Shown here: one piece after another, positions 7,024 through 36,373 of the stretch
Layout: each line of letters begins with the position of its first letter
Numbering within the stretch: position 1 is the first letter of the stretch
NCBI GenBank assembly: GCA_021200565.1
Contig: JAJQGJ010000012.1
Span: forward strand, 62,001 to 126,000
Length of the DNA stretch: 64,000 bases
Reading direction: 5' to 3'
Source: Oscillospiraceae bacterium
GTDB taxonomy: Bacteria > Bacillota > Clostridia > Oscillospirales > Ruminococcaceae
Program-made: the position numbers and the translations under genes
The notes under the pieces: generated by a model
Told to the model about the DNA's origin: nothing
What the model saw: the letters and a program-made list of their open reading frames with translations, nothing else
Database searches by the model: none

Positions 7024-8955
7024 TCAGAGTTTCGATTTTGTATAATCGAGCAAGCCTCCTGCAAGGATGATTTCTCTGTCACGTGCGGAGAGCTCAATCT
7101 TCAGGACAATACTCTCGCCATTGGTGAGATTTTTGAGTGTGACGGTGTCGCCGGTGGAAACGGCTTCTTTAAGACCGGTCAGGCTGAGCTTGTCACTCTG
7201 AGAAATCTTCTCATAATCGGATTCTGTCTCGAATGTCAGAGGCAGGATTCCGGCATTAATGAGATTAGCCTTGTGGATTCGGGCGAACGACTGAACAACT
7301 ACAGCCTTGATTCCTAAGTAAAGAGGAGCCAGGGCGGCATGCTCTCTTGAGGAGCCCTGACCATAGTTCGAGCCGCCGACGATGATGCTGGTGCCCAAAC
7401 TAAGTGCTCTTGCCGGGAATTCAGTGTCGACAACCTCAAAGCAGTGCTTCGAGATTTCGGGAATATTCGAGCGGAGAGGCAAAATCTTCGAGCCGGCAGG
7501 CATGATGTGGTCTGTCGTGATATTGTCGCCGACCTTGAGGGAACATTCAGCTTCGATGGAGTCGGGAAGCGGCGAGGTCTTCGGGTAGCCCTTGATATTG
7601 GGTCCACGCTTTATTTCAACTGCCGGAGCTTCTTCGGGAACTGCAGGGAGCTCAACCATGTTGTCGTTGATGACGAACTCCTCGGGCATCTTAAACTCAG
7701 GCATGTCGCCCAAGGTTCTCGGGTCTGTGAGAACACCCGTGAGAGCGGATGCTGCGGCGGTTTCGGGAGAGATGAGATAAACCTGTGCGTCCTTGGTGCC
7801 GCTTCTGCCAAGGAAGTTGCGGTTGAATGTGCGGAGCGATACTCCGGCGGAATTAGGCGACTGACCCATTCCTATGCAGGGACCGCAGGCGGATTCGAGG
7901 ATTCTTGCGCCGCAATCGATCATGTCGGAAAGATACTCGCCCTTCGAGAGCATATTCAAGACCTGCTTCGAGCCGGGAGCGATTGAAAGCGAAACGTCCG
8001 GATGGACGGTCTTGCCCTTAAGGATATATGCTACTTTCATCATATCAACAAACGATGAATTGGTGCAGGAACCGATGCAGACCTGATTTATCTTCATTCC
8101 TGCAAGCTCGCTTACCGGCTTGACGTTGTCGGGAGAGTGCGGGCAGGCTGCGAGAGGCTCAAGAGTGCTGAGGTCAATCACAAGCTCTTCGTCATAGACG
8201 GCATCAGGGTCAGCCTTAAGTTCAGTCCAGTCGGCTTCTCTGTGCTGAGCCTTCATGAATTCATAGGTCTTCTCATCAGACGGGAAGATGCTGGTGGTTG
8301 CACCGAGCTCGGCTCCCATATTCGTGATAGTTGCACGCTCAGGAACGCTGAGAGTCTTGACGCCCTCGCCGGTATATTCAATAATCTTTCCGACGCCGCC
8401 CTTGACGGTGAGGCGTCTTAAAACCTCCAGAATTACATCCTTGGCGGAAACCCAAGGGCTAAGCTTGCCTTTGAGCTCAACCTTCACCATTTTCGGATAG
8501 GTTATATAGAGCGGTCCGCCGCCCATTGCGACTGCGACATCAAGACCTCCCGCACCGATTGCGAGCATGCCCAAGCCACCACATGTGGGGGTGTGGGAAT
8601 CGGAGCCGATAAGGGTCTTACCGGGAATTCCGAAACGCTCAAGGTGAACCTGGTGGCAGATTCCGTTGCCGGGACGTGAGAAGGAAATTCCACGCTTCTT
8701 GGCGACTGAGCCGATAAACAGATGGTCATCGGCGTTCTCAAAGCCGGACTGGAGGGTGTTATGATCGACATAAGCAACGCTCTTCTCGGTTTTTACCGAC
8801 GGAATCTCCATCGCCTCAAGCTCGATATAAGCCATTGTGCCGGTGGCATCCTGAGTCAAAGTCTGGTCAATTCTGATTCCTATCTCGGAACCCTTGATAA
8901 ACTCACCGTCTACGAGGTGAGCCTTTAATATTTTTTCAGCTACGGTATAACCCAT
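7024..8955 (-). CDS. acn: Aconitate hydratase (short form)
   Basis: 643-residue [4Fe-4S] enzyme interconverting citrate and isocitrate. Cluster ligands are visible: the Cys of GSCTNSS and the two of ACGPCIGMGQSP. GSDSHTPTCGGLGMLAIGAGGLD and the C-terminal swivel-domain motif GGSNYGQGSSREHAALAPLYLG are also clear. It is about 250 residues shorter than classical AcnA and matches the compact aconitases of anaerobes related to the LeuC/LeuD fold. A homoaconitase or isopropylmalate isomerase role is less likely because icd is the next gene. The ribosome-binding site (AGGGGCG) is weak. Confidence 0.92.
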   Translation of the reverse strand: MGYTVAEKILKAHLVDGEFIKGSEIGIRIDQTLTQDATGTMAYIELEAMEIPSVKTEKSVAYVDHNTLQSGFENADDHLFIGSVAKKRGISFSRPGNGICHQVHLERFGIPGKTLIGSDSHTPTCGGLGMLAIGAGGLDVAVAMGGGPLYITYPKMVKVELKGKLSPWVSAKDVILEVLRRLTVKGGVGKIIEYTGEGVKTLSVPERATITNMGAELGATTSIFPSDEKTYEFMKAQHREADWTELKADPDAVYDEELVIDLSTLEPLAACPHSPDNVKPVSELAGMKINQVCIGSCTNSSFVDMMKVAYILKGKTVHPDVSLSIAPGSKQVLNMLSKGEYLSDMIDCGARILESACGPCIGMGQSPNSAGVSLRTFNRNFLGRSGTKDAQVYLISPETAAASALTGVLTDPRTLGDMPEFKMPEEFVINDNMVELPAVPEEAPAVEIKRGPNIKGYPKTSPLPDSIEAECSLKVGDNITTDHIMPAGSKILPLRSNIPEISKHCFEVVDTEFPARALSLGTSIIVGGSNYGQGSSREHAALAPLYLGIKAVVVQSFARIHKANLINAGILPLTFETESDYEKISQSDKLSLTGLKEAVSTGDTVTLKNLTNGESIVLKIELSARDREIILAGGLLDYTKSKL

Positions 8956-12177: not shown

Positions 12178-12206
12178 TTGACACTTTGAGATTAACATGC
12201 TATAAT
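12178..12206 (+). promoter_or_regulatory. Glutamate synthase cluster promoter
   Basis: Perfect consensus: TTGACA (12178-12183), 17-base spacer, TATAAT (12201-12206). The predicted transcription start, about 12213, places the first ANTAR-type hairpin at the very 5' end of the RNA. No other promoter of this quality is visible before 30.2 kb. Confidence 0.85.
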
Positions 12207-12214
12207 TTTTCGTA

Positions 12215-12280
12215 ATGAGCAAAGGCGTTCATATAGGGGATAGTATACCCTTTTGGAATTGACGTCTTTGCTTTTTTCTT
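12215..12280 (+). promoter_or_regulatory. Candidate ANTAR-responsive transcription attenuator
   Basis: P1 is a 6-bp stem ATGAGC/GTTCAT (12215-12220, 12227-12232) closing the hexaloop AAAGGC. Two bases later P2 is AGGGG / T(A)CCCT with one bulged A, closing the hexaloop ATAGTA (12240-12245). Both loops have A at position 1 and G at position 4, the hallmark of ANTAR-protein RNA targets. A competing intrinsic terminator pairs GCAAAGGCGT (12219-12228) with ACGTCTTTGC (12262-12271; 10 bp, one wobble), followed by TTTTTTCTT. Forming P1 destroys the terminator's 5' arm. An ANTAR gene lies in the same cluster at 18.6 kb. Confidence 0.7.
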
Positions 12281-12301
12281 AGTATGAAAGGAAGAGAAGT
12301 C

Positions 12302-13393
12302 ATGAAGTTGGAAGGTCAGGTACGCATACCTTCGGGCTGTGCCATATCCGCCGTTATTTCACGTGACGGCAGAAAGATGAGCGGAGACGCCATCATAAAA
12401 AGCATGATACCTATGCACGACCGCTCAAACGGTCTTGGAGGCGGTTTCGCAGCCTACGGTATTTATCCGGAATATAAGGAATTCTACGCCCTGCATATTT
12501 TCTATAACGACAATAACGTCAGGATGGAATGTGAGAATCTCCTGAAGGATGGGTTTGAGATTATCAAATCAGAGAGCATCCCGATAAGGAAAACCCCGAA
12601 AATCTCGGATGTTCCGCTTATCTGGAGATACTTCGTGGCTCCTATGTCATCGGTATTATCCCGCTTGCATGTTGACGAGAAGGAATATGTCGCAGAAACC
12701 GTTATGAAGATCAATTCCCAGATCAACGGCGCATATGTCTTCTCATCTGGAAAGAATATGGGAGTTTTCAAGGCTGTCGGCTTCCCTGAGGATGTCGGAT
12801 ACTTCTACAGACTCGACGAATATGAGGGCTACTGCTGGACAGCTCACGGAAGATACCCCACAAACACTCCCGGCTGGTGGGGCGGTGCTCACCCGTTTGC
12901 ACTTTTAGACTACACAATAGTCCATAATGGCGAGATTTCCTCATATGATGCCAACAGGCGCTATATTGAAATGTACGGCTACAAGTGCACGCTTCAGACG
13001 GATACCGAGGTTATAACCTACATCGCTGACTATCTTTTGAGGCGTCAGGGCTTGACTCTTGAAGAGACCGCTTCAGTCATTGCAGCTCCGTTCTGGTCGA
13101 CTATCGAATCGAAGCCTGAAGAAGAGCGCAAGAAGCTCAGCTATTTGAGAACCGTTTATTCAAGCTTGCTCGTCACCGGTCCTTTCTCGATTGTTTTAGG
13201 CTTTGAGGGCGGGCTGATGGCACTTAACGACAGACTCAAGCTCCGCTCGATGGTAACCGCCGAAAAGGATGATCTGGTCTTCATTGCGAGTGAGGAATCG
13301 GCTATAAGAGCAATAGCTCCGGATGCTACGAATGTCTATGCACCCGCTGGCGGCGAGCCGATTATAGTTAAGGTGAAAGAAGGGAAATACTGA
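12302..13393 (+). CDS. Glutamate synthase, glutamine amidotransferase subunit (class II)
   Basis: 363-residue amidotransferase domain encoded as a separate gene, as in archaeal-type and clostridial split glutamate synthases. It would hydrolyse glutamine and supply ammonia to the FMN subunit. The likely nucleophile is the Cys of IPSGCAISAV near residue 13, implying removal of a short N-terminal propeptide. HGRYPTN and VHNGEISSY are class II amidotransferase motifs that bind glutamine. Start at 12302 chosen because AAAGGAAG lies 9 bases upstream; an ATG six codons earlier overlaps that site. It is the first gene of the cluster, and its stop shares a base with the next start (TGATG). Confidence 0.88.
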   Translation: MKLEGQVRIPSGCAISAVISRDGRKMSGDAIIKSMIPMHDRSNGLGGGFAAYGIYPEYKEFYALHIFYNDNNVRMECENLLKDGFEIIKSESIPIRKTPKISDVPLIWRYFVAPMSSVLSRLHVDEKEYVAETVMKINSQINGAYVFSSGKNMGVFKAVGFPEDVGYFYRLDEYEGYCWTAHGRYPTNTPGWWGGAHPFALLDYTIVHNGEISSYDANRRYIEMYGYKCTLQTDTEVITYIADYLLRRQGLTLEETASVIAAPFWSTIESKPEEERKKLSYLRTVYSSLLVTGPFSIVLGFEGGLMALNDRLKLRSMVTAEKDDLVFIASEESAIRAIAPDATNVYAPAGGEPIIVKVKEGKY

Positions 13394-14898
13394 TGGCTAT
13401 AAATTTTGTAAACCCCGAATTTGAGGTTGTAAGAAATCCCAACCGCTGCATTGCGTGCCGTGTCTGCGAGCGTCAGTGCTCAAACGGCGTTCACAGCTTC
13501 GATCCGGAAACAGGAACGATGATGGCGGATGAGACAAAGTGCGTCGACTGTCAGAGATGCGTAGCACTCTGTCCGACAAGAGCTCTTAAGATTGTCAAGA
13601 ACGAATGCCAGCTCCGTGAAAATGCCAACTGGCAGCAGGACACCATCTATGAAATATACAAGCAGGCTGGAAGCGGAGGAGTTCTCCTCTCGTCCATGGG
13701 CAACCCGAAGCCTCTTCCTGTATACTGGGATAAGATTTTAATCAACGCTTCCCAGGTCACGAATCCCCCTATCGACCCGTTAAGAGAGCCGATGGAGACT
13801 AAAGTTTTTCTTGGTAAAAAGCCGACAATGCCGGAAAGAAATCCGGACGGAAGCTTGAAGACAGACCTGGCTCCGCAGCTTGAGCTCACAATGCCGGTTA
13901 TGTTCTCGGCGATGAGCTACGGCTCGATAAGCTACAACGCTCACGAAAGCCTTGCAAGAGCCGCTGAGGCGTTGGGCATCTGCTACAACACCGGTGAGGG
14001 CGGACTTCACGAGGACTTCTACAAATATGGTGCGAACACCATCGTTCAGGTTGCGTCGGGACGCTTCGGCGTTCATGAGGATTACCTCAGCGCAGGTGCC
14101 GCAATCGAGATAAAGATGGGTCAGGGCGCAAAGCCGGGCATCGGCGGACATCTTCCCGGCAAGAAGATTGTCGGAGACGTTTCGAGAACCCGAATGATTC
14201 CTGAGGGCTCAGACGCCATCTCCCCTGCTCCGCATCATGATATTTACTCTATCGAGGATCTCCGGCAGCTGGTCTACTCCCTTAAGGAAGCGACACAGTA
14301 CACAAAGCCGGTTATCGTAAAAGTAGCGGCTGTACATAACATTGCAGCTATTGCAAGCGGTATTGCACGAAGCGGTGCCGACATAATCGCAATCGACGGC
14401 TTCAGAGGCGGAACCGGTGCGGCTCCGACAAGAATCAGAGACAACGTCGGTATTCCTATCGAGCTTGCCCTTGCAGCTGTTGACCAGAGACTTCGTGACG
14501 AAGGAATAAGAAACAACGTATCCCTGGTTGTCGGCGGCAGTATCCGCTCGGCTTCGGATGTTGTAAAGGCTGTAGCCCTCGGCGCTGATGCATGCTATGT
14601 TGCGACTGCGGCGCTCTTAGCTCTCGGATGCCACCTCTGCAGAACTTGTCACACCGGCAACTGCAACTGGGGAATTGCAACCCAGAAGCCGGAACTGGTC
14701 AAGAGATTGAATCCGGACATCGGCTCACAAAGGCTCATAAACCTCATGACTGCATGGCGGCATGAAATTATGGAGCTGATGGGCGGCATGGGAATAAACT
14801 CGATTGAAGCCCTGAGAGGCAACAGACTTATGCTCAGAGGCGTTAACCTCAACGAGAAGGAATTAGAGATCTTAGGCATCTCGCATGCAGGGGAGTGA
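13393..14898 (+). CDS. Glutamate synthase, FMN-binding catalytic subunit with ferredoxin domain
   Basis: 501-residue subunit catalysing reductive amination of 2-oxoglutarate. The N-terminal 80 residues hold two 4Fe-4S motifs (CIACRVCERQC, CVDCQRCVALCP). The (beta/alpha)8 FMN domain follows, with KMGQGAKPGIGGHLPG, ASGIARSGADIIAIDG, GGTGAAPT and the cluster motif CHLCRTCHTGNCNWG. It corresponds to the central and FMN domains of GltB, with the amidotransferase and GXGXG domains supplied by separate genes on either side. Cytoplasmic. Confidence 0.93.
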   Translation: MAINFVNPEFEVVRNPNRCIACRVCERQCSNGVHSFDPETGTMMADETKCVDCQRCVALCPTRALKIVKNECQLRENANWQQDTIYEIYKQAGSGGVLLSSMGNPKPLPVYWDKILINASQVTNPPIDPLREPMETKVFLGKKPTMPERNPDGSLKTDLAPQLELTMPVMFSAMSYGSISYNAHESLARAAEALGICYNTGEGGLHEDFYKYGANTIVQVASGRFGVHEDYLSAGAAIEIKMGQGAKPGIGGHLPGKKIVGDVSRTRMIPEGSDAISPAPHHDIYSIEDLRQLVYSLKEATQYTKPVIVKVAAVHNIAAIASGIARSGADIIAIDGFRGGTGAAPTRIRDNVGIPIELALAAVDQRLRDEGIRNNVSLVVGGSIRSASDVVKAVALGADACYVATAALLALGCHLCRTCHTGNCNWGIATQKPELVKRLNPDIGSQRLINLMTAWRHEIMELMGGMGINSIEALRGNRLMLRGVNLNEKELEILGISHAGE

Positions 14899-14903
14899 CG
14901 GAT

Positions 14904-15332
14904 ATGAAAAGAGTTTATGTAAACGAAAAATGGTGCCTTGGGTGTCATCTCTGTGAGTACAACTGCGCTTTTGCAAACTCAGGGCTCAAGGATATGGCGA
15001 AACTGAAGGGTCAGAAGATATACCCGAGAATCAGGGTTGAGGGCGACGACAAGATCACTTTTGCTATCTCCTGCCGCCATTGCGAGGATCCGATATGCAT
15101 CAAGAGCTGCATTTCGGGAGCACTTTCGAAAACTCCTGACGGAATGGTCGAGATCGATAAGTCACGCTGCGTCGGATGCTTGACATGCGTCCTCGTCTGC
15201 CCATATGGAGCGGTCATCCAGGACGGCGACGGAGCTGTTCAGAAGTGCGAGCTTTGCTTGAAGAATTCCTCGGGCGCACCTGCATGTGTTGCCGGTTGCC
15301 CGAATAACGCAATAGTTTACGAGGAGAGGTGA
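14904..15332 (+). CDS. 4Fe-4S ferredoxin-type electron-transfer subunit
   Basis: 142-residue HycB/DmsB-like iron-sulfur protein with four Cys clusters: CLGCHLCEYNC, CRHCEDPICIKSC, CVGCLTCVLVCP and CELCLKNSSGAPACVAGCP, enough for up to four [4Fe-4S] centres. It probably shuttles electrons between the FAD oxidoreductase encoded next and the FMN subunit before it. Start at 14904 has AGGGGAG 8 bases upstream; a GTG three codons earlier is less well placed and lies inside that site. Confidence 0.88.
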   Translation: MKRVYVNEKWCLGCHLCEYNCAFANSGLKDMAKLKGQKIYPRIRVEGDDKITFAISCRHCEDPICIKSCISGALSKTPDGMVEIDKSRCVGCLTCVLVCPYGAVIQDGDGAVQKCELCLKNSSGAPACVAGCPNNAIVYEER

Positions 15333-15337
15333 GCGAA

Positions 15338-16573
15338 ATGGCAAAGAAGTATGTTATCATCGGCAACGGAACTGCCGCTGTCGGCTGCATCGAGGGCATA
15401 AGAGCCCATGATATGGATGGCTCTATAACCGTTATTTCGGCTGAAAAGCACCCTGCCTATTGCCGTCCGCTTATCTCCTACTATCTTGAGGGCAAGGCTG
15501 TTCCGGAAAGAATGAGCTATCGTCCCGACGATTTCTATGACAGAAACGGCGTCAAGGTTATCTATGGTGAGAGTGCCGAGAAAATTGACGCTGACAAGAA
15601 ACAAGTAGTTCTCGGAAACGGCGAAAAGGTAGATTACGACAGCGTATGTGTTGCGGCTGGTTCAAGACCGCTCGTGCCGCCTTTTGAGGGGCTCGACACT
15701 GTTCCCGTGAAGCTCCCGTTTATGACTCTTGACGATGCACAGGCTCTTGAAGCTGCAATTTCTGAGGACAAAGATGTCTTCATCGTCGGCGCAGGTCTTA
15801 TTGGACTCAAGTGCGCTGAGGGACTTTATGGAAGAGTAAAGTCAATCACCGTCTGCGACCTGGCTGACAGGGTGCTTTCGAGCATTCTCGATGTCGAAAC
15901 CGCAGAGATGATGAAAAAGTGTCTCGAAGATAACGGTATGAAACTGATGCTTTCCGACACCGCCACCAAGTTCGACGGCAACGTCGCATATATGAAGAGC
16001 GGCAAGACTGTCAAGTTTGATGTTCTGGTTCTCGCTGTCGGCGTAAGAGCGAATATTTCGCTTGTAAAAGATGCCGGTGGCGACTGCGGACGTGGTATCA
16101 CCGTTGACAACCATATGGCTACATCACTCTCCGACATCTATGCCGCAGGAGACTGCACAGAGTCGGTGGATTATTCCAGTGGAGCTGTAAAAGTCATGGC
16201 AATCATGCCGAATGCATATATGCAGGGGCACTGCGCCGGAGAGAATATGGCGGGCAAAGATGTCACATTCGACAACGGTATCCCAATGAATGCAATCGGA
16301 TTCTTTGGATTCCATGTTATGAGCGCCGGAACTCCCGACGGAGAGCTCTGGGAAGAAAAGTCAACGGGTAGCTCGAAGAAGCTGTTTACTAAAGATGACC
16401 GGCTTGTAGGCTTCATTCTGGCGGGCGACACGACCCGTGCCGGAATTTATACAAATTTGATAAGAAACGGTATTTCTTTAAGCTCTATTGACTTTGATAC
16501 CATAAAATCAGCTCCAAATATCTTTTCTTTTGGTCAAGAATACTGTAGAAATTCTCTCGGAGGTGTGGTATAA
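15338..16573 (+). CDS. FAD-dependent NAD(P)H oxidoreductase of the glutamate synthase cluster
   Basis: 411-residue pyridine nucleotide-disulfide oxidoreductase-like flavoprotein. An N-terminal FAD Rossmann motif (YVIIGNGTAAVGCIEGIR), a central NAD(P)-binding motif (VFIVGAGLIGLKCAEGLY) and the late FAD motif (SLSDIYAAGDCTE) are clear. There is no CxxxxC redox-active disulfide, so it belongs with NADH-rubredoxin/ferredoxin reductase types. It probably feeds electrons through the iron-sulfur subunit. The next gene starts 2 bases after its stop codon. Confidence 0.85.
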   Translation: MAKKYVIIGNGTAAVGCIEGIRAHDMDGSITVISAEKHPAYCRPLISYYLEGKAVPERMSYRPDDFYDRNGVKVIYGESAEKIDADKKQVVLGNGEKVDYDSVCVAAGSRPLVPPFEGLDTVPVKLPFMTLDDAQALEAAISEDKDVFIVGAGLIGLKCAEGLYGRVKSITVCDLADRVLSSILDVETAEMMKKCLEDNGMKLMLSDTATKFDGNVAYMKSGKTVKFDVLVLAVGVRANISLVKDAGGDCGRGITVDNHMATSLSDIYAAGDCTESVDYSSGAVKVMAIMPNAYMQGHCAGENMAGKDVTFDNGIPMNAIGFFGFHVMSAGTPDGELWEEKSTGSSKKLFTKDDRLVGFILAGDTTRAGIYTNLIRNGISLSSIDFDTIKSAPNIFSFGQEYCRNSLGGVV

Positions 16574-16574
16574 T

Positions 16575-17291
16575 ATGTTGATAGATGTTTCAGGCTTGGG
16601 ATTCAGCGAGATCAACACCCTGATAAGACAGCAGGGTGAAAGCTGTCACCTCACCGGCTGCCTCAGCCAGAGGTTCATCGGTGCCGGCATGTCATACCGT
16701 GAAATAACGATTGACGGAACTCCCGGAAACGCACTCGGCGCATACCTCAACGGCGGTGAAATCACCGTCAACGGAAACGCTCAGGATGCTGTGGGAGATA
16801 CCATGAACGATGGCAAGATTATCATCCACGGTCACGTCGGCGACGCTGTCGGCTATGCTATGCGTGGCGGAGAGATTTACGTCAGAGACAGTGCAGGCTA
16901 CCGCGCAGGAATCCACATGAAGCAGTACAAGGAAAAAAGACCGGTTATGGTCATCGGCGGAAGAGTTGGAAGCTTCCTTGGCGAATATCAGGCTGGCGGC
17001 TTGATAATAGTTTTAGGGCTCAACAAGGGCGACAAGCCCATCGTCGGAAACTTCCCGGGAACCGGTATGCACGGCGGCAAGCTTTTCCTGAGAAATTCAG
17101 AGGGTCTTAAGTTCCCCGCTCAGGTAAATGTGAACGAAGCTTCGGATGAGGACATGGCTGAAATTATGCCGTTCTTAAAGAACTACTGCACCTATTTCGG
17201 CGCAGACCTGATGGAAATCTTGGCATCAAAGTTCACAGTGGTCACTCCCGACTCGAAGAATCCATACAGACAGATGTACGTCAACAACTGA
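16575..17291 (+). CDS. Glutamate synthase GXGXG-domain subunit
   Basis: 238-residue right-handed beta-helix (GXGXG) protein, equivalent to the C-terminal domain of GltB and here an independent gene. The repeated turns are visible (GTPGNALGAYLNGGEITVNG, NAQDAVGDTMNDGKIIIHG, HVGDAVGYAMRGGEIYV, then GGRVGSFLGEY). In glutamate synthase this domain is structural and shapes the ammonia tunnel. Start at 16575 is set by GGAGGTG upstream. Confidence 0.9.
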   Translation: MLIDVSGLGFSEINTLIRQQGESCHLTGCLSQRFIGAGMSYREITIDGTPGNALGAYLNGGEITVNGNAQDAVGDTMNDGKIIIHGHVGDAVGYAMRGGEIYVRDSAGYRAGIHMKQYKEKRPVMVIGGRVGSFLGEYQAGGLIIVLGLNKGDKPIVGNFPGTGMHGGKLFLRNSEGLKFPAQVNVNEASDEDMAEIMPFLKNYCTYFGADLMEILASKFTVVTPDSKNPYRQMYVNN

Positions 17292-17314: not shown

Positions 17315-18523
17315 ATGAGCTATACTCCCGACGAAATTCTCCAGTATATCGAGGAAGAGGATGTCAAGTTCATCCGTTTGGCGTTCTGCGATGTTTTCGG
17401 AACGCCTAAGAACATTTCCATCATGCCTAACGAGATGAGGCGTGCTTTCGAGCAGGGTATCTCTATTGATGCATCTGCAATCGCCGGCTTCGGCGAGGAA
17501 AGCCACTCGGATATGCTCCTTATCCCCGACCCGTCGGAGATTTCAATTCTCCCCTGGCGTCCGGAGCACGGAAGAGTTGTCAGAATGTTTTGCACCGTTT
17601 GTAATCCTGACGGCAGTGTTTTTGAAGCGGACACAAGAAGTCTTCTTAAAAAGACCGCCGAAGAGCTTGAGTCTCAGGGCTTCGATTTCAATTTCGGTCC
17701 TGAAACGGAGTTTTATCTCTTCAAGCAGGACGAAAACGGCGAGCCAACAAAGATCCCATATGACCATGCAGGCTATATGGACTTAGCTCCCGAGGACAAG
17801 GGCGAAAATGTCCGGCGTGAAATCTGTCTGACACTTGAGCAGATGGGAATCGTTCCGGAATCGTCTCACCACGAAGAGGGTCCGAGTCAGAATAAAATAG
17901 ATTTCAGATATTCTGACGCCCTAACAGCTGCTGACCATGCAATTACATTCCGTTCAGTTGTCAAGACCATTGCCGCAAGAAACGGGCTTTATGCCGACTT
18001 CTCACCGAAGCCGCTTCCAAATCTTCCCGGAAACGGCATGCACATAAACATCTCCGCTGTATATAATGGCGAGGATGTACTTTCCTATGCTACTGCAGGT
18101 ATTTTAAAGCATATCTCCGAAATTACGCTGTTTTTGAATTCCCAGCCCGATTCCTATAAAAGATTCGGCTTTAACAAAGCACCACTCTATATATCCTGGT
18201 CGGAGCAGAACCGCTCGCAGCTCATAAGAATTCCCGCAACGATGCGTGAATACAAGCGTGCAGAGCTTAGATCTCCAGACCCTATGTGCAACCCATATCT
18301 CGCACTTTTACTACTTATGAAATCCATGGAAGACGGAATAAGAAATAAGCTTCCGCTCTGTGAACCGACGGGAATAAACCTCTTCAAGGCGACGCCAAAG
18401 GAGCTTTCAAAGTTTGAAACTCTTCCGAGAACGCTTTCTGAAGCCGCTTCGGTGGCTCGGAGCTCGGCTTTCGTGAAAGAGTGTATTCCACAGTCGATTA
18501 TAGACCACTATTCTTCAAGATAA
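17315..18523 (+). CDS. glnA: Glutamine synthetase, type I, short C-terminus
   Basis: 402-residue ATP-dependent ligase making glutamine from glutamate and ammonia. Motifs: LAFCDVFGTPKN, GPETEFYLF (metal-binding Glu), SHHEEGPSQNKIDF, GNGMHINIS (catalytic His) and NRSQLIRIPA. It aligns with the GSI-alpha type but stops soon after CIPQSIIDHYSSR, about 35-40 residues earlier than Bacillus GlnA. It therefore lacks the C-terminal tail used in hexamer-hexamer contacts and, in Bacillus, regulator binding. It lies between glutamate synthase and an ANTAR regulator, so the complete GS-GOGAT ammonia assimilation cycle is one unit. Confidence 0.93.
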   Translation: MSYTPDEILQYIEEEDVKFIRLAFCDVFGTPKNISIMPNEMRRAFEQGISIDASAIAGFGEESHSDMLLIPDPSEISILPWRPEHGRVVRMFCTVCNPDGSVFEADTRSLLKKTAEELESQGFDFNFGPETEFYLFKQDENGEPTKIPYDHAGYMDLAPEDKGENVRREICLTLEQMGIVPESSHHEEGPSQNKIDFRYSDALTAADHAITFRSVVKTIAARNGLYADFSPKPLPNLPGNGMHINISAVYNGEDVLSYATAGILKHISEITLFLNSQPDSYKRFGFNKAPLYISWSEQNRSQLIRIPATMREYKRAELRSPDPMCNPYLALLLLMKSMEDGIRNKLPLCEPTGINLFKATPKELSKFETLPRTLSEAASVARSSAFVKECIPQSIIDHYSSR

Positions 18524-18567: not shown

Positions 18568-20795
<2,228 letters not shown>

Positions 20796-20800
20796 TAAGG

Positions 20801-22261
20801 ATGAATGAAATTCATGAGGAATGTGGGATATTTGGGGTTTATGCTCCGGATACAAGGCGACTTTCTGAAATGGTTTACTATGGGCTGTATGCACTGCAGC
20901 ACCGTGGGCAGGAAAGCTGCGGCATGGTTGTATGCGATGATGGGCTTTTCTATTCCCATAAGGATTTGGGGCTCGTGGGCGAAGTGTTCACAAAAGAGGC
21001 TATCGCTTCGCTTCCATCCGGTCAGATGGCTGTCGGGCATGTCCGCTATGGCACCACCGGCGGCACAAGCAGAGCAAACTGCCAGCCTATCGAGGTAAAC
21101 CACTGCAAGGGAAGACTCGCTCTTGCCCACAACGGAAACTTAACCAACGCCTATGAGCTGAGGGCTCGCCTTGAGCTCTCCGGCGCCATATTCCACACAA
21201 CCAGCGACACTGAAACCATAGCTTATATTGTCACGCAGGAGCGATTGACTGCACCCTCGATTGAGGAAGCAGTGAACCGCGCCGCTTGGCGTTTGGAGGG
21301 TGCTTATTCCCTCGTATTCATGTCGGCAACCAAGCTCATTGCCATGCGTGACGCTCACGGATTCCGCCCTCTCTGCTACGGAAAAACTCCGGATGGCTGC
21401 TACATCATCACATCCGAAAGCTGCGCTCTGGCGGCAGTTGGAGCTGAGTTTGTAAGAGACATTCTCCCAGGCGAGATTGTCGTTTTCGACGAAAACGGCA
21501 TCCACTCGATAAAGGATCACTGCGATAAGAAGCCTGAAAGGCTCTGCGTTTTCGAATATATCTACTTTGCACGTTCCGATTCTGTGATAAACGGCGTTTC
21601 GGTTCATGCGGCAAGAAGAAAAGCCGGCGAACTCTTAGCCAAGAGCCATCCAGTCGAGGCGGACGTCGTCATCGGCGTTCCCGATTCAGGGCTTGATGCG
21701 GCACTCGGCTACTCAATGGCTTCGGGGATTCCGTATGAACTCGGGTTTATCAAAAATAAATACGTCGGCAGGACGTTTATCTCGCCCACTCAGAGCGACA
21801 GGCTTGACCAGGTGAGAATCAAGCTGAGCCCGATAAGCGAGGCGGTCACCGGCAAGCGGGTCATCATGATCGATGATTCAATCGTCAGAGGCACAACCAG
21901 TGCGCAGATAGTCAAGCTACTCCGGAACGCCGGAGCGAAAGAGGTTCACGTGAGAATCTCTTCGCCGCCGTTCCTGAATCCCTGCTACTACGGAACTGAC
22001 ATCGACTCGGAAAACGGTCTTATTGCTTGCAGTCACACTGTTGAAGAGATCGCCGAAATTATCGGTGCGGACACTCTTGGGTATCTCCCGACAGAGGATC
22101 TAAAAGCACTTGCCGGAAGCGAAAACATCTGCACATCCTGCTTCACCGGCGAATATCCGACAGGGATTCCTGCTCACACAGACAAGGGTCGCTTTGAGGG
22201 CAAGCTCTCAGAAGCGAAACCGCAAAAATCTCGTCTATACAAGTTGCCAAAGGCAACTTGA
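20801..22261 (+). CDS. purF: Amidophosphoribosyltransferase
   Basis: 486-residue enzyme of the first committed step of purine synthesis. A short propeptide (MNEIHEE) precedes the Ntn Cys nucleophile of CGIFGVY; the PRPP-binding loop is VIMIDDSIVRGTT. Cys residues in CVFEYIYF, NPCYYGT and ICTSCFTGEYP match the [4Fe-4S] ligands of the Bacillus-type enzyme, so it is probably oxygen-labile. Start at 20801 has AAGG close upstream and leaves the expected propeptide length. A perfect hairpin covers its last codons (22240-22260). Confidence 0.95.
   Translation: MNEIHEECGIFGVYAPDTRRLSEMVYYGLYALQHRGQESCGMVVCDDGLFYSHKDLGLVGEVFTKEAIASLPSGQMAVGHVRYGTTGGTSRANCQPIEVNHCKGRLALAHNGNLTNAYELRARLELSGAIFHTTSDTETIAYIVTQERLTAPSIEEAVNRAAWRLEGAYSLVFMSATKLIAMRDAHGFRPLCYGKTPDGCYIITSESCALAAVGAEFVRDILPGEIVVFDENGIHSIKDHCDKKPERLCVFEYIYFARSDSVINGVSVHAARRKAGELLAKSHPVEADVVIGVPDSGLDAALGYSMASGIPYELGFIKNKYVGRTFISPTQSDRLDQVRIKLSPISEAVTGKRVIMIDDSIVRGTTSAQIVKLLRNAGAKEVHVRISSPPFLNPCYYGTDIDSENGLIACSHTVEEIAEIIGADTLGYLPTEDLKALAGSENICTSCFTGEYPTGIPAHTDKGRFEGKLSEAKPQKSRLYKLPKAT
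22240..22260 (+). other. Perfect hairpin over the purF stop codon
   Basis: CAAGTTGCC (22240-22248), AAA, GGCAACTTG (22252-22260): a 9-bp stem that includes the first two bases of the purF stop codon. No U-run follows, so it is not a classic terminator. Confidence 0.65.
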
Positions 22262-22263
22262 TA

Positions 22264-22319
22264 AAGAATGTCTAAAATAGCCCTAATGGCTATTTTACGG
22301 CTTCGCCGCCGCCATTCTT
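22264..22319. repeat. Three-way-junction palindromic element between purF and purC
   Basis: Outer arms AAGAATG (22264-22270) and CATTCTT (22313-22319) enclose two internal hairpins: AAAATAGCC/GGCTATTTT (22274-22296) and CGGC-TTC-GCCG (22298-22308). It looks like a small mobile palindrome or a structured intercistronic RNA. It fills most of the 105-base purF-purC gap, and no promoter or purine riboswitch is seen there. Confidence 0.6.
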
Positions 22320-22366
22320 CAAATCCAAAAAATAATATATTCAAACACTTTTAGGAGGACAATATC

Positions 22367-23068
22367 ATGGACAAGCTTTATGAAGGAAAATCGAAAATCG
22401 TTTACGAGGGCACTGAGCCGGGTACTTGCATCATCAAGTACAAGGACACCGCTACCGCTGGCAACGGCGTCAAGAAGGAGGATCTCCCCGGAAAAGGAAT
22501 CCTTAACGCAAAGATTTCGAACCTCATCTTCGAGTATCTCGCCAAAAACGGCGTCAAGACTCATCTTATCAAGGTTTTGGATGAGACTGACGTTTTAGTC
22601 AAGAAAGCAGAAATCGTTATGGTCGAGGTTATTGTGAGAAACGTTGCAGCCGGAAGCTTCTCAAAGAAGTATGGCGTTCCTGAGGGCACAAAGCTCTTAA
22701 ACACTGTCACCGAATTCAGCCTCAAGAGCGACGAGCTCGGCGACCCGATGATCAACGACTGCCAGATTACTGCTCTCGGAGTTGCAACTCAGGCTGAGCT
22801 TGATGAGCTCAAGGCTGTTTCACTGAAAGTAGACCAGCTTATGACTGAGCTCTTCTTAAAGTGCGGCATCAAGCTTATCGACTTCAAGCTCGAATTCGGA
22901 AGAGTTGACGGCGAGCTTCTTTTGTGCGACGAAATCTCTCCCGACTCCTGCAGACTCTGGGATGCTGAAACCGACGAAAAGCTCGACAAAGACCGCTTCC
23001 GCAGAGACCTCGGTAATGTCCTTGACGGCTACAGAGACGTTTTAGCAAGACTTGAGCAGGCAATCTGA
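22367..23068 (+). CDS. purC: Phosphoribosylaminoimidazole-succinocarboxamide synthase
   Basis: 233-residue SAICAR synthetase, joining aspartate to CAIR in purine synthesis. It begins MDKLYEGKSKIVYEG, with the family motif VRNVAAGSFSKKYGVPEG and LIDFKLEFGRVDGELLLCDEISPDSCRLWD near the C-terminus. Length is normal for bacterial PurC. AGGAGGACAAT upstream fixes the start. It is followed 14 bases later by purB. Confidence 0.96.
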   Translation: MDKLYEGKSKIVYEGTEPGTCIIKYKDTATAGNGVKKEDLPGKGILNAKISNLIFEYLAKNGVKTHLIKVLDETDVLVKKAEIVMVEVIVRNVAAGSFSKKYGVPEGTKLLNTVTEFSLKSDELGDPMINDCQITALGVATQAELDELKAVSLKVDQLMTELFLKCGIKLIDFKLEFGRVDGELLLCDEISPDSCRLWDAETDEKLDKDRFRRDLGNVLDGYRDVLARLEQAI

Positions 23069-23082
23069 ATCCGGAGGAAATA

Positions 23083-24507
23083 ATGACAGATAAATACGAA
23101 AATCCACTGTGCAAGAGATATGCCGGCGAGAAGATGCAGAAAATCTTCTCCGATGACACTAAATTCTCGACCTGGCGAAAGCTCTGGATTGCCCTCGCTG
23201 AGAGTGAAAAGGAGCTTGGACTCGACATTTCGGACGAGCAGATAGCCGAAATGAAGGAGCACATCTATGACATCGACTATGAGGCAGCCGCCGCACGTGA
23301 AAAGGTCGTCAGGCACGACGTCATGGCGCACATCTACGCCTATGGCTTGGTCTGCCCGAAAGCAAAGCCTATAATTCATCTCGGGGCTACAAGCTGCTAT
23401 GTAGGAGACAACACGGATATTATTCTGCAAAGAGATGCTCTTCTTAGAATCAGAAGCCTTCTTGTGACTGCAATCTCCGCTCTCTGCGACTTTGCGGAAA
23501 AGTATAAAGACCTTCCCTGCCTTGCGTACACTCACTTCCAGGCAGCTCAGCCAACTACTCTTGGAAAGCGTGCTACTCTCTGGCTTCAGGACCTCGTTAT
23601 GGATCTTGAAAGGCTTGACTTCACTCTTTCGAACTTAAAGCTCTTAGGCTGCAGAGGCACCACCGGAACCGGCGCCAGCTTCCTTGAGCTCTTCGGCGGC
23701 GACAAGGAGAAAGTGAGAAAGCTCGAAAAGCTCATTGCTGAGAAGATGGGCTTTGAGGCGGCATACTCGGTCAGTGGTCAGACCTACACGAGAAAGGTCG
23801 ACTACTACTCGCTGTCGGTTCTTTCGGGAATCGCTCAGAGTGCGCACAAGTTCTCAAACGATATAAGGCTTCTTTCACACTTAAAAGAAGTCGACGAGCC
23901 CTTCGAGGCGGGACAAGTAGGTTCCTCTGCAATGGCTTATAAGCGTAACCCGATGAGATCAGAGCGAATCGCATCTTTGGCAAGATACGTGACTGTTGAC
24001 GCTCTTAATCCGGCTCTTACAGCAAGCGAGCAGTGGTTCGAGAGAACTCTTGACGACTCGGCTAACCGCAGAATCAGCATTCCGGAAGCGTTCTTGGCTG
24101 TCGACGGAATCCTGAGCCTCTACATAAATATCATCAGTGGGCTTAAGGTCTATCCGAAGATAATAGCAAGGCATCTTTCCTCGGAGCTTCCCTTCATGGC
24201 AACTGAGAATATACTCATGTACTGCGTCAAGAAGGGCGGCGACAGGCAGACTCTCCACGAGGCTATAAGAACACATTCTGTAGCTGCTGCAACCGACATC
24301 AAGGAGGGCGGCGACGGAAATCTTATCGCAAGAATCGCTGCCGATCCGATTTTTGGGTTGACAGAGAGCGAGATACAGAGTATTATAGATGAGGGAGGCT
24401 TCACAGGGCTTGCTTCCGATCAGGCTGAGGAGTATGTCAGCTATGTAAGAACTGAGATACTTCCCGGTGAGGGAGAAAAAGCCGACGACGTCACCATCAA
24501 CGTTTAA
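23083..24507 (+). CDS. purB: Adenylosuccinate lyase
   Basis: 474-residue lyase acting twice in purine synthesis (SAICAR to AICAR, adenylosuccinate to AMP). The fumarase/aspartase superfamily signature is SSAMAYKRNPMRSER; HFQAAQPTTLGKRATLW holds a catalytic His region. It sits directly between purC and purA, matching substrate flow. GGAGGAA precedes the start. Confidence 0.96.
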   Translation: MTDKYENPLCKRYAGEKMQKIFSDDTKFSTWRKLWIALAESEKELGLDISDEQIAEMKEHIYDIDYEAAAAREKVVRHDVMAHIYAYGLVCPKAKPIIHLGATSCYVGDNTDIILQRDALLRIRSLLVTAISALCDFAEKYKDLPCLAYTHFQAAQPTTLGKRATLWLQDLVMDLERLDFTLSNLKLLGCRGTTGTGASFLELFGGDKEKVRKLEKLIAEKMGFEAAYSVSGQTYTRKVDYYSLSVLSGIAQSAHKFSNDIRLLSHLKEVDEPFEAGQVGSSAMAYKRNPMRSERIASLARYVTVDALNPALTASEQWFERTLDDSANRRISIPEAFLAVDGILSLYINIISGLKVYPKIIARHLSSELPFMATENILMYCVKKGGDRQTLHEAIRTHSVAAATDIKEGGDGNLIARIAADPIFGLTESEIQSIIDEGGFTGLASDQAEEYVSYVRTEILPGEGEKADDVTINV

Positions 24508-24545: not shown

Positions 24546-25814
24546 ATGCTAACAGCAATAGTTGGAATCAACTGGGGCGACGAAGGAAAGGGCAGAATGG
24601 TTGACCTTCTGTCAAAGGACTTCGACATCATCTGCCGCTATCAGGGCGGCAACAATGCAGGACACACCGTCATCAATGAGAGAGGAAGCTTCGTTCTGAA
24701 TCTCCTTCCCTCCGGAATCTTCCACGAGACGGCTGTCAATGTCATGGGCGGAGGAATGGTTGTTGACCTTGAGCACCTTTGCCACGAAATCGCATCCCTC
24801 AGAGAAAAAGGAATCGATATAAGCCCCGAAAATCTCAAGATCAGCGACAAAGCTACCATATGCCTGCCCTATCACAAGGAGCTCGACATCATGGAGGAGG
24901 AGCGTCTCAAGGATAAGAAGTTCGGCTCCACCCGCCGTGGCATAGCTCCCGTTTATGCGGACAAGTATATGAAAAAGAGCTTAAGAATGAGCGATCTCCA
25001 GAATCCCGACACCCTCGCTGAAAAAGTGAAGGACATTGTCGAATGGAAGAACCTGACATTCAGCGGCTATGGTCATGAGCTTATAAATGCTGATGAGATA
25101 CTCGCATGGCTCAAGAAGTATGGCGACGAGATACTTCCGTATGTCACCGACGTTTCCTCATATCTCGAGAAAGCTGCCGACGACGGAAAGAACATCATGT
25201 TCGAGGCTCAGCTTGGAGCATTAAGAGACATCGACTTCGGAATTTATCCTTACACTTCTTCTTCCCAGACGCTTGCGCACTATGCGCCAATCGGCGCCGG
25301 TATTCCTGGAAGAAAGCTCGACTGCTCTATCGGCATCATGAAAGCTTATTCCACCTGCGTCGGCGAGGGACCGTTCACTTGTGAAATGTTCGGCGAAGAG
25401 GCTGAGGCTTTAAGAGCTGCCGGAGGAGAATACGGTGCCGCAACCGGAAGGCCGAGACGTGTCGGACCTTTCGACGTTCCTGCTTCAAAGTATGGCGTGA
25501 GAGTTCAGGGCGCTGATTACCTCGTTCTTACGAAGCTCGACGTTCTTTCCTATATGGATAAGATTCCTGTCTGCGTTCACTATGATGTTGACGGCGAGAT
25601 CACCGACACCTTCCCGACTGGAGACAGACTTGAGCGTGCAAAGCCGGTTGTCGAATATGTCAAGGGCTTCGGCGACGTTTCCAAGTGCCGCAAAAAAGAG
25701 GATCTCCCCGAGGATGCACTTAACTACATCCGCCTTATCGAGCATGCAGTTGGCTGCCCGATAAAGTACGTCTCAGTCGGTGCTGAAAGAGACGAATATA
25801 TCACTATGTTCTGA
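24546..25814 (+). CDS. purA: Adenylosuccinate synthetase
   Basis: 422-residue GTP-dependent enzyme converting IMP and aspartate to adenylosuccinate. N-terminal P-loop-like motif INWGDEGKGRMVD, with catalytic Asp and Lys inside; NNAGHTV (catalytic His), GSTRRGIAPVYADK and TGRPRRVGPFD are also present. AAAGGACAAAGGC precedes the start. Separated from carA by 76 bases containing a strong hairpin. Confidence 0.96.
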   Translation: MLTAIVGINWGDEGKGRMVDLLSKDFDIICRYQGGNNAGHTVINERGSFVLNLLPSGIFHETAVNVMGGGMVVDLEHLCHEIASLREKGIDISPENLKISDKATICLPYHKELDIMEEERLKDKKFGSTRRGIAPVYADKYMKKSLRMSDLQNPDTLAEKVKDIVEWKNLTFSGYGHELINADEILAWLKKYGDEILPYVTDVSSYLEKAADDGKNIMFEAQLGALRDIDFGIYPYTSSSQTLAHYAPIGAGIPGRKLDCSIGIMKAYSTCVGEGPFTCEMFGEEAEALRAAGGEYGAATGRPRRVGPFDVPASKYGVRVQGADYLVLTKLDVLSYMDKIPVCVHYDVDGEITDTFPTGDRLERAKPVVEYVKGFGDVSKCRKKEDLPEDALNYIRLIEHAVGCPIKYVSVGAERDEYITMF

Positions 25815-25890: not shown

Positions 25891-26994
25891 ATGAAAGAGT
25901 ATGACCGCAAGATAATTACGGAGGACGGAAGCGAATACCTGGGATATGGTTTCGGAAGCCCGGATGAACGGGTTCTGGAGCTTGTATTCAACACTTCCAT
26001 GGTCGGCTATCAGGAGATAGTTTCGGATCCGTCCTATACCGATCAGATGGTCGTTATGACCTACCCTATCATAGGAAGCTACGGAATCAACGACGACGAT
26101 TTCGAAACCAAGTACCCGACAATCGGTGCTCTGGTCGTGAGAGACTATAACGATATGCCGTCGAATTTCCGTTATATAAAGACGCTTTCGGAGCTGCTGG
26201 AGGAAAACAGTATTCCCGGCATCAGTGGCGTTGACACACGTAAACTCACACGAAGCATCCGTGATTACGGTTCCCGCAGAGCCATTATCACCGATATTTC
26301 CACTTCCCTTGAGGAGGGGCTTGAAAAGATAAAGTCAGCTCCTGTTCCGCATGACGCTGTTTCAAGAGTCAGCACCAAGAAGCGTTGGTATTCAAGAACC
26401 TCTAACCCACAGTTCAATGTTGTAGCACTTGACTGCGGAATCAAACTCAACATTGTTCGCTCCCTCAACCGCAAGGGCTGCAACGTCACCATTGTCCCCT
26501 ACGACATCACTGCCGAAGAGGTCATTTTCATGAAGCCGGATGGAGTCTTCCTCTCAAACGGTCCCGGCGACCCGGAAGATGTCACTCAGGCAGTGGAGCT
26601 AGTCAAGGGTCTTCGTGGCAAGTATCCGATTTTCGGAATCTGCTTAGGACACCAGGTTATATCTTTGGCATACGGTGCGAAGACATATAAACTCAAGTTC
26701 GGTCACCGTGGCGGAAACCACCCGGTCAAGAATCTTGCAACCGGCAAGCTTGAAATAACTTCACAGAACCATAGCTACGCTGTTGACCCCGATAGTCTCA
26801 AGGGCACAGGTCTTGAAGTCACGCATATAAATCTTCTTGACAACACCATTGAGGGCGTTGAATGCAAAGAGGATAAAGTGTTCAGCGTTCAGTATCACCC
26901 GGAGAGCGCACCCGGTCCGGAGGATTCGGGATACCTGTTCGATAAATTCCTTGATTACATGAAGGAGGCGAAGAGTCATGCCGAAGAGAACTGA
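25891..26994 (+). CDS. carA: Carbamoyl-phosphate synthase small subunit
   Basis: 367-residue glutamine amidotransferase subunit delivering ammonia to CarB. The N-terminal domain has [20 protein letters not shown] and [16 protein letters not shown]; the class I amidotransferase domain has [11 protein letters not shown], the Cys nucleophile in FGICLGHQ and [21 protein letters not shown] lies upstream of the start. Its 3' end overlaps carB by 17 bases. Confidence 0.96.
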
Positions 26995-29900: not shown

Positions 29901-30163
29901 AGCAACACGGTATCAGAACCCGTGTCAAGGGCAAGATAAGCGAAGGAAGCGACGAAATACTCGATTCCATCAGGGCAGGATATGTAAGCTACATCATCAA
30001 TACCCGTGCTGTTCTCTCAGGAGTTCACTATGAGGACGGCATTGAGATAAGACGCTGCGCTATCCAGAACGGTGTTACCACGTTTACTTCGCTCGATACA
30101 GTGAGGATTCTTTTGGATGTTCTTGAAGATATGATTCCGCCGATTTCGACGATTGATGCGTAA
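26978..30163 (+). CDS. carB: Carbamoyl-phosphate synthase large subunit
   Basis: 1,061-residue synthetase making carbamoyl phosphate for pyrimidines and arginine. Two homologous ATP-grasp halves are visible, each starting with a [20 protein letters not shown] or [20 protein letters not shown] motif (about residues 7 and 551). A C-terminal allosteric MGS-like domain (about 930-1061) ends the protein. Full length for the family. GGAGGCG inside carA serves as its ribosome-binding site. The gene ends at a family A repeat that doubles as a terminator. Confidence 0.97.
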
Positions 30164-30166
30164 TTT

Positions 30167-30243
30167 GTAGGGGCGGATATTATCCGCCCGTTACGGGCAC
30201 CTGCGAAGGGTTCGGGCGGATAATATCCGCCCCTACTTTTTTT
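30167..30243 (+). repeat. REP-like family A copy 4, acting as carAB terminator
   Basis: The best-preserved copy: arms at 30167-30190 and 30213-30236 are fully complementary over 24 bp with a 22-base spacer, and each arm is itself palindromic. It starts 3 bases after the carB stop and is followed at once by a run of seven Ts (30237-30243). It therefore has every property of an intrinsic terminator for the 18-kb plus-strand cluster. Confidence 0.85.
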
Positions 30244-30338: not shown

Positions 30339-30381
30339 TATTAAAATGACACTTTGTTTTACCTGGAGGAGTCCAACAGAA

Positions 30382-36263: not shown

Positions 36264-36285
36264 AAAAAACGCTCCTTTCTCTTCT

Positions 36286-36373
36286 GTAGGGGCTGGATAC
36301 ACAGGTTAGCTTTGCTAACCTGTCCGTCCGGGCACTATCGGCGGGGATGCGGGCGGATAATATCCGCCCCTAC
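36286..36373. repeat. REP-like family A copy 5 (degenerate left arm)
   Basis: The right arm is intact (CGGGCGGATA... to CCCTAC, ending 36373). The left arm is altered to GTAGGGGCTGGATAC, followed by a separate 8-bp hairpin AGGTTAGC/GCTAACCT. It looks like a family A repeat disrupted by or fused with another palindrome, between the lipoprotein gene and the ATP synthase terminator. Confidence 0.75.

Follow-up and report, generated by a model that had tools for sequence, protein, structure and literature searches.

At the head of a glutamate synthase (GOGAT), glutamine synthetase (GS) and ANTAR gene cluster in the window, the 64,000-nucleotide stretch of Oscillospiraceae DNA analysed here, we located what is quite probably a single-hexaloop, ANTAR-dependent attenuator at +1, which would autoregulate the GOGAT-GS-ANTAR cluster and possibly act through carB. 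That an ANTAR-controlled attenuator heads the cluster is well supported by comparative sequence evidence. ANTAR control is argued for by the conservation and covariation of the antiterminator hairpin (H), the conservation of the terminator, the linkage and co-occurrence of H with ANTAR genes, and the presence of further copies before nitrogen and nucleotide genes. Judged by these comparisons, H, the terminator, their mutual exclusion, their conservation and their covariation are real, as are the presence of one hexaloop and the association with ANTAR genes; the transcription start, recognition of H by the ANTAR protein, antitermination, the kind of signal and the extent of the unit are inferred. 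The arrangement would be a new variant, because known ANTAR attenuators use two hexaloops and EutV is reported to need both. The first-pass annotation had proposed an ANTAR attenuator with paired hexaloops, P1 (here H) and P2; conservation, covariation and the linkage and co-occurrence with ANTAR genes bear out the attenuator, and the pairing of hexaloops is not supported.

Leader and gene cluster in the window

The features of the leader and the genes behind it are as follows.

12178-12206, plus strand: sigma-70-type promoter TTGACA-17-TATAAT with TG before the -10 (12/12 consensus matches)
12215-12232, plus strand: antiterminator hairpin H, 6-bp stem ATGAGC/GTTCAT, hexaloop AAAGGC; presumed ANTAR binding site
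12219-12228, plus strand: intrinsic terminator 5' arm GCAAAGGCGT, running from the last bases of the 5' arm of H through the loop into its 3' arm
12235-12252, plus strand: inner stem inside the terminator, with 8-base loop ATAGTATA; read as the terminator tip
12262-12277, plus strand: terminator 3' arm ACGTCTTTGC (12262-12271), then six T (12272-12277)
12302-13393, plus strand: gene 1, class-II glutamine amidotransferase-like, first of the split glutamate synthase cluster
13393-17291, plus strand: split glutamate synthase genes, comprising the four below
13393-14898, plus strand: Glu_synthase domain protein
14895-15332, plus strand: Fe-S protein
15329-16573, plus strand: pyridine nucleotide-disulphide oxidoreductase
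ending at 17291, plus strand: GXGXG protein
17315-18523, plus strand: glnA, glutamine synthetase
18568-19173, plus strand: ANTAR protein with degenerate receiver domain; presumed antiterminator
19173-20795, plus strand: pyrG
20792-22261, plus strand: purF-like gene
22367-23068, plus strand: purC
23083-24507, plus strand: purB
24546-25814, plus strand: purA
25891-26994, plus strand: carA
26978-30163, plus strand: carB
30214-30232, plus strand: terminator-like hairpin after carB (from the scan), possible end of the unit

The hexaloop of H occupies 12221-12226, with A at position 1 (12221) and G at position 4 (12224). H begins eight bases past the promoter and about 2 bases past the predicted transcription start. 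This hairpin, and the terminator formed by pairing of 12219-12228 with 12262-12271 ahead of its six-T tail, were found just as the first-pass annotation had described them, and its estimate of a start about 2 bases before the hairpin fits the perfect promoter, from which transcription would begin about 2 bases before 12215. The RNA of 12213-12290 folded at -23.6 kcal/mol (z = -3.6 against 200 dinucleotide shuffles). Folded alone, H reached -4.3 kcal/mol against -22.5 kcal/mol for the terminator form, so H needs help to persist. No Rfam family reached its gathering score in the leader, the best match below it being ncr982 (24.2 bits, cut-off 50).

Among named records, those closest to gene 1 (96-99% identity) come from metagenome-assembled Ruminococcus or Oscillospiraceae. 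How far the unit extends beyond the ANTAR gene was also considered. The first-pass annotation had carried it possibly to carB, and this is plausible on sequence: all the genes share a strand, and carB is followed by a terminator-like hairpin, found in a scan of the window that returned such hairpins at about background (20 sites versus 16.9 shuffled). Against it, a perfect inverted repeat (22273-22297), TAAAATAGCC-CTAAT-GGCTATTTTA, separates the purF-like gene from purC and is accompanied by a weak promoter-like match at 22340-22368; the repeat might end, attenuate or split the long unit. The genes from purC to carB are thus possibly in the same transcription unit as gene 1. After the cluster, 30346-34629 encodes a 1427-aa BadF/BcrAD-type ATPase with DUF2229, and a 543-aa frame on the minus strand (34671-36302) had no Pfam or NCBIfam match at the thresholds used.

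Conservation and covariation of the leader in relatives

Gene-1 orthologues were collected from 31 genomes of the genus (29 matched) and from 80 named-record loci, giving 109 loci; removal of duplicates and of L095, which came without upstream sequence, left 92 distinct leaders, a set picked through the gene rather than the motif. A C[ANNGNN]G hairpin with a stem of 4 bp or more was present in 84 of these, and each of the other fifteen letter pairs at loop positions 1 and 4 in 1 to 10 leaders (n = 92). The first-pass annotation had staked both hairpins on hexaloop conservation in orthologous leaders; these 84/92 leaders uphold P1, and P2 fails the comparison. Eight leaders had no C[ANNGNN]G hairpin: L052, L053, L088 and L103, in which a similar hairpin with G1 and G4 was seen by eye, and L099, L101, L108 and L111, from which any similar hairpin was absent. 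A further search left the loop letters free and asked only that a promoter be followed by a hexaloop hairpin and then by a 3' arm ending in front of a T-run. It found 72 of the 92 leaders, and 65 of the 72 were ANNGNN, all of them C-G closed; the remaining 20 gave no match. By eye, leaders L106 and L107 carry a hexaloop hairpin, GGAAC[AACGYG]GTTTC, inside flanking terminator-like arms CGGGCG...CGCCCGATTTTTT; L110 and L111 have similar arms, in an arrangement unlike that of the other leaders.

The strict pattern RTGARCAANGRCGTTCRY occurred in 76/297 genomes of the order (2 for a reversed control pattern) and in 55/393 genomes of the class (control, 5). Gene-anchored and pattern-anchored H sites were pooled and freed of duplicates, giving 191. 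At 172 of them the T-run was preceded by a 3' arm that pairs with -8 kcal/mol or better, compared with 23 of 860 trials on shuffled segments. Among the 19 sites that failed this arm test, L247 is cut by a contig end, L250 and L261 look real but weaker, and the others look by eye like chance matches in coding sequence; a few of the 172, such as L140 and L236, are by eye probably chance matches too. Because 89 of the 172 leaders were selected by pattern, the loop letters of this set prove nothing alone, and the gene-anchored set carries the loop argument. A promoter matching at 8/12 positions or more preceded 158/172 hairpins, as against 37/172 shuffled upstream stretches. The minimum-energy fold was the terminator form in 138/172 leaders and paired fewer than four of the six loop bases downstream in 34/172; the distance from loop to T-run had a median of 45 bases (28-93).

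A covariance model found the window site at 49.5 bits (E 1.1e-8; the window leader is in its training set), and its other matches in this genome had E 1.3 or worse. A loose H pattern had three matches in the genome, one being the window site. The second (C17) was rejected as an H site, falling within a 286-aa open frame, and so was the third (L122), which lacks a terminator and recurs with the same sequence in seven other fetched loci, suggesting a coding stretch.

Covariation was measured in an alignment, A2, of 65 diverse leaders. It was taken from 74 leaders whose 3' arm reached -14 kcal/mol or better and whose T-run came within 62 bases, nine being left out (L109 and L140 as doubtful, seven for brevity). 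The six stem pairs of H were formed in 95.6% of cells (93.3% in shuffles), with two-sided changes in 11 cells versus 2.8, and pairing fell to 29-47% when the partner was slid by 1 to 3 columns. The 16 terminator pairs were formed in 87.6% of cells (shuffles 77.1%), in rows whose choice favours good arms, with 131 two-sided changes versus 47.1 and 39-59% pairing with a slid partner. Two of the ten pair measures were not clear of shuffles, namely further pair types in H, where 114/500 shuffles reached the observed value, and the count of terminator pairs with a two-sided change, where 35/500 did. Covariation above shuffles was present in P1 and the terminator, two of the three structures in which the first-pass annotation had proposed looking for it. 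In 52/65 leaders column 19 pairs both with column 2, in H, and with column 77, in the terminator, as expected of mutually exclusive structures. Among gene-anchored copies, stem pairs 5 and 6 beat all 500 shuffles, pair 7 did not, and pairs 8 and 9 were at shuffle level. Among 64 distinct gene-anchored copies, all selected as paired, stem pair 2 was G-U in 49, A-U in 13 and G-C in 2, a preference that fits an RNA signature rather than a DNA palindrome.

The hairpin with hexaloop ATAGTA that the first-pass annotation had placed behind H did not hold up. For 12235-12252 the favoured fold is a 5-bp stem carrying an 8-base loop (-4.9 kcal/mol); forced into the ATAGTA form, with its bulge and G-U closing pair, the segment reaches only -0.3 kcal/mol, and in the folded leader it is nested in the terminator and forms its tip. 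The equivalent of P2 is unconserved in relatives, whose folded stretches have hairpin loops of 3 to 11 bases. Further A1/G4 hexaloops between H and the T-run of the 172 leaders were at the level of mononucleotide shuffles of the same leaders, at stems of at least 3 bp (23/172 versus 22.1 +/- 3.6), at least 4 bp (4/172 versus 8.8 +/- 3.0) and at least 5 bp (3/172 versus 3.0 +/- 1.3). On the forced-fold energy and this shuffled-rate occurrence we reject P2 as a second ANTAR hexaloop. A second hexaloop upstream is likewise rejected. Little space is left for a hairpin before H, whose 4-bp core follows the -10 element after 9-12 bases in 126/158 leaders that have a recognisable promoter, and A1/G4 hexaloops in the 30 bases preceding H were again at the shuffled rate (at least 3 bp, 12/172 versus 12.1 +/- 3.7; at least 4 bp, 6 versus 4.4 +/- 2.0; at least 5 bp, 1 versus 1.4 +/- 1.1).

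Two relatives carry more than one hairpin of this kind. The gene-anchored relative L092 has two A1/G4 hairpins, AAGGGC and AAGGGT, at about 7790-7900, possibly the classical dual-hexaloop form at the same locus. In L319 (about 1500-1730, genome G698), two H-terminator units seen by eye stand in tandem, 112 bases apart, before a glnA-like gene, a possible two-step attenuator.

The ANTAR protein, its linkage to H and the genes behind H

The product of 18568-19173 matched the Pfam ANTAR domain at 44.5 bits (cut-off 27.3), and Response_reg at 22.6 bits, under its cut-off of 30.2. The best profile matches among solved structures were Rv1626, then EutV (6wsh) and AmiR. A phosphorylatable receiver, with an acid pair and a phospho-acceptor Asp, is absent from the window protein. 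Its phospho-acceptor position is Asn59, and in 53 cluster-linked orthologues this position is Asn in 46, Ser in 5, Asp in 1 and His in 1, the acid-pair positions being mostly Ser or Ala. Since this receiver-like domain is without a phospho-acceptor Asp, the signal is probably read by partner binding, by analogy with AmiR and AmiC, and not by phosphorylation. The partner may be glutamine synthetase or a PII protein, a guess prompted by the dead-looking receiver and by glnA as the usual neighbour. EutV contact positions were assigned by profile alignment and from the contacts given in PMC8934654. All 53 cluster-linked orthologues keep Met, Lys and Glu where EutV has Met172, Lys149 and Glu160, and all have His, as AmiR does, in place of Tyr164 and Glu or Gln in place of Arg168; Arg142 is replaced by Ile in 47/53.

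PF03861 was found once in this genome, in the gene at 18568-19173, about 6 kb downstream of H on the same strand. At loci reaching 7 kb past gene 1, a same-strand ANTAR-type open frame follows in 53 of 66. Of the 13 loci without a linked ANTAR gene, 11 have H, and in nine of these the genome carries a full-length orthologue at another place (L041, L042, L045, L046, L061, L064, L066, L067 and L104). The other two are L068 (G702), whose genome has only an ANTAR-domain-like match, and L056 (G697), for which no ANTAR match was found in the genome. Among loci without H, L099 has a full-length orthologue elsewhere in its genome, L101 has an orthologue in its genome, L111 has an ANTAR gene nearby and L108 has only an ANTAR-domain-like match. 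In seven of the nine genomes with a detached ANTAR gene, that gene is preceded on its strand by an H site (loose pattern GARCAANGRCGTTY) some 1.3 kb away, a distance of about one glnA length; the intervening gene matched glnA in one (L112) and is glnA-like by eye in five others. No H was found upstream of the detached gene in G696 and G703. Genome G004, spotted through its second H site, adds one more such case: over the 8.6 kb fetched its gene-1 cluster contains no ANTAR gene, and the second H is followed by a 402-aa frame and then an ANTAR gene.

Across the 297 genomes of the order, PF03861 occurred in 68 of the 76 with the strict pattern versus 128 of the 221 without it (p = 1e-7 by Fisher's test, which takes no account of relatedness among genomes). 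The figures became 67/70 versus 130/227 (p = 5e-11, with the same proviso) on re-scoring, in which six genomes with chance matches only were made negative (five without a terminator, G276 by eye) and a partial ANTAR gene at a contig end in G248 was counted. In at least 43 of the 76 pattern-positive genomes, hand-picked among the matches listed and given as an illustration rather than a rate, H and ANTAR share one contig and strand, with ANTAR 1.7-8.2 kb downstream.

Exceptions of both kinds were read individually. In G112 and G236, of one genus, H and a terminator (L271 and L270) stand before purA, identified by eye in G112, and neither an ANTAR gene nor gene 1 was found in these genomes; their H may be either a relic or read by another binding protein. 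In G097 the contig bearing gene 1 leaves 2.2 kb downstream, and the ANTAR gene may be missing from the assembly. Of 20 genomes read that have ANTAR without the strict pattern, 13 have it beside gene 1 or glnA. A variant H with a terminator, with loops such as AAAGAC, AAAGGT and AAGGAT, stood just before the first gene in six of the 13 by an automatic test whose background was 8 matches elsewhere in the same 20 stretches. L342 and L348 look similar by eye and fail this test, through a missing T-run and a G in the first loop position; in the remaining five no H stood before the first gene, an A1/G4 hairpin in L353 failing the terminator test. The flanks of 30 ANTAR loci were also read for H; 17 could be oriented, and none had H in flanks that end short of passing glnA.

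At 88 pattern-anchored H sites, the open frame that comes next was gene-1-like in 59 and glnA-like in 5. Two further frames, and two of the 59, begin MCGIA, which we take to mark asparagine synthetase, and 22/88 stayed unassigned, often where the fetched stretch was short. Behind chosen H sites, NCBIfam models above cut-off identified purA (L248, L270), purC (L249), purB (L252) and pyrG (L279, which lay outside the terminator test); below cut-off were type I glutamine synthetase (L250, which fails that test) and a fragment of the glutamate synthase large subunit (L181). Outside the glutamine theme, dapF (diaminopimelate epimerase) was found above cut-off behind the H of L277 (G046), which has a short terminator. 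Save for dapF and asparagine synthetase, the genes behind the H sites of relatives are of the kinds lined up in the window.

Known systems, alternative readings and proposed mechanism

ANTAR targets are known at the same class of genes in Desulfotomaculum, a Gram-positive spore former. They lie at glutamate synthase genes of D. reducens and in a six-unit regulon of D. acetoxidans, and, unlike H, they were found with a two-hexaloop model (PMC3369931). A review describes NitR of Clostridium saccharobutylicum, an ANTAR-family protein that uses antitermination to switch on genes of the GS/GOGAT cycle when nitrogen is limiting (PMC6316151); it probably has the same biological function as the window system. 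The eut leaders of Enterococcus faecalis share with the window an A1/G4 hexaloop on a short stem overlapping the 5' arm of the terminator (PMC3369931, PMC8934654), a receiver-like ANTAR protein and nitrogen-related genes. They differ in that the single hexaloop here lies at the extreme 5' end, without recruitment hairpin or linker, and in that the receiver here is without a phospho-acceptor Asp. AmiR (PDB 1qo0) is likewise an ANTAR protein with a pseudo-receiver (PMC8934654) and has His at the EutV Tyr164 position, but it regulates Pseudomonas amidase genes through AmiC and its target is a stem-loop pair (PMC3369931). The PAS-ANTAR-LOV photoreceptor NmPAL resembles the window system in binding single short hairpins, which, unlike H, come mainly from in vitro selection (PMC10966536).

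Published models of ANTAR targets demand two hexaloops (PMC3369931, PMC8164766), separated by a linker of 5-12 bases in eut and 2-25 in an actinobacterial survey (PMC8164766). EutV needs both in vivo (PMC3369931). Its dimer binds one hexaloop at a time, and each alone with similar affinity (6.0 and 3.1 uM); antitermination nevertheless requires both, the upstream one being proposed as a recruitment hairpin, and is abolished when the linker is lengthened by 20 bases (PMC8934654). Given this need for two hexaloops and the effect of the 20-base linker, it is not obvious that one hexaloop suffices. The authors of the EutV structure asked for a bioinformatic search for single-hexaloop sites, and among the papers covered, mostly non-subscription, such sites are raised only there (PMC8934654).

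The leader could be read in other ways. A regulator other than ANTAR, whether another RNA-binding protein or polymerase pausing, might hold H as a real antiterminator and leave the ANTAR linkage incidental, as the purA leaders of G112 and G236 and the many ANTAR-bearing genomes without the strict motif (128/221) would allow. We consider this unlikely, since the fixed loop letters of H are those fixed in ANTAR targets, ANTAR follows at 53/66 loci, and H precedes the detached ANTAR gene in 7/9 genomes. It is very unlikely that the leader is a classical dual-hexaloop attenuator with both P1 (AAAGGC) and P2 (ATAGTA) bound: ATAGTA does have A1 and G4, its spacing is within the reported 2-25-base linker (PMC8164766) and L092 shows two such hairpins, but the forced fold of P2 (-0.3 versus -4.9 kcal/mol) and the shuffled-rate occurrence of further A1/G4 hexaloops in the 172 leaders speak against it.

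Three readings dispense with an antiterminator bound by protein as RNA. H might merely be the 5' arm of a constitutive attenuator with no regulator, its loop and 3' half being constrained by pairing with the 3' arm; this is hardly credible, because covariation links the outer 5' half of H to the 3' half (pairs 5 and 6; columns 2 and 3), which a terminator alone does not require, and A1 and G4 recur in 65/72 leaders even when no loop letters are required. H lies at about +1 to +18 and is two-fold symmetric, as DNA operators usually are, so that it might be an inverted-repeat operator for a repressor, a reading that we find far-fetched when the commonest gene-anchored form would place a G-T mismatch in the second pair of the DNA (49/64), a terminator arm matches H at 172/191 sites and the loop is asymmetric and conserved. 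Many copies of H start with ATG or GTG, and a leaderless peptide, ATG-AGC-AAA-GGC-GTT-CAT, could in principle serve a ribosome-based attenuator; this is almost certainly wrong, as some copies have no start codon (L064, L072, L087, L104) and the sequence after H varies in length and looks non-coding by eye.

Under ANTAR control through a single hexaloop, RNA polymerase would start about 2 bases before 12215 and H would be the first structure able to form. Left unheld, its loop and 3' half would re-pair with 12262-12271 into the stronger terminator, and transcription would stop at 12272-12277. Binding of the ANTAR protein to the A1/G4 hexaloop would hold H and block the terminator, and read-through would then reach the glutamate synthase-glutamine synthetase-ANTAR cluster and probably pyrG and the pur and car genes as well. 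Because the ANTAR gene sits inside the controlled unit, the circuit would be self-reinforcing. With the T-run a median of 45 bases past the loop, the time taken to transcribe that distance would be available for protein binding, and an antiterminator at +1 would act as its own recruitment hairpin.

We lean slightly towards a broader reading, in which Clostridia hold a large class of single-hexaloop attenuators whose +1 hairpin replaces the recruitment hairpin, whose ANTAR protein senses nitrogen through its dead receiver, possibly via the adjacent glutamine synthetase, and whose regulon takes in genes that make or use glutamine (GOGAT, glnA, asnB, pyrG and purA/B/C). The current model of ANTAR antitermination has two hexaloops at fixed spacing; the H family offers many natural terminator sites with a single hexaloop, and the single-hexaloop question is thereby testable. 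In gut and rumen Clostridia the ANTAR regulon would control how ammonia is assimilated and nucleotides are made, and searches that ask for two hairpins may have overlooked much of it.
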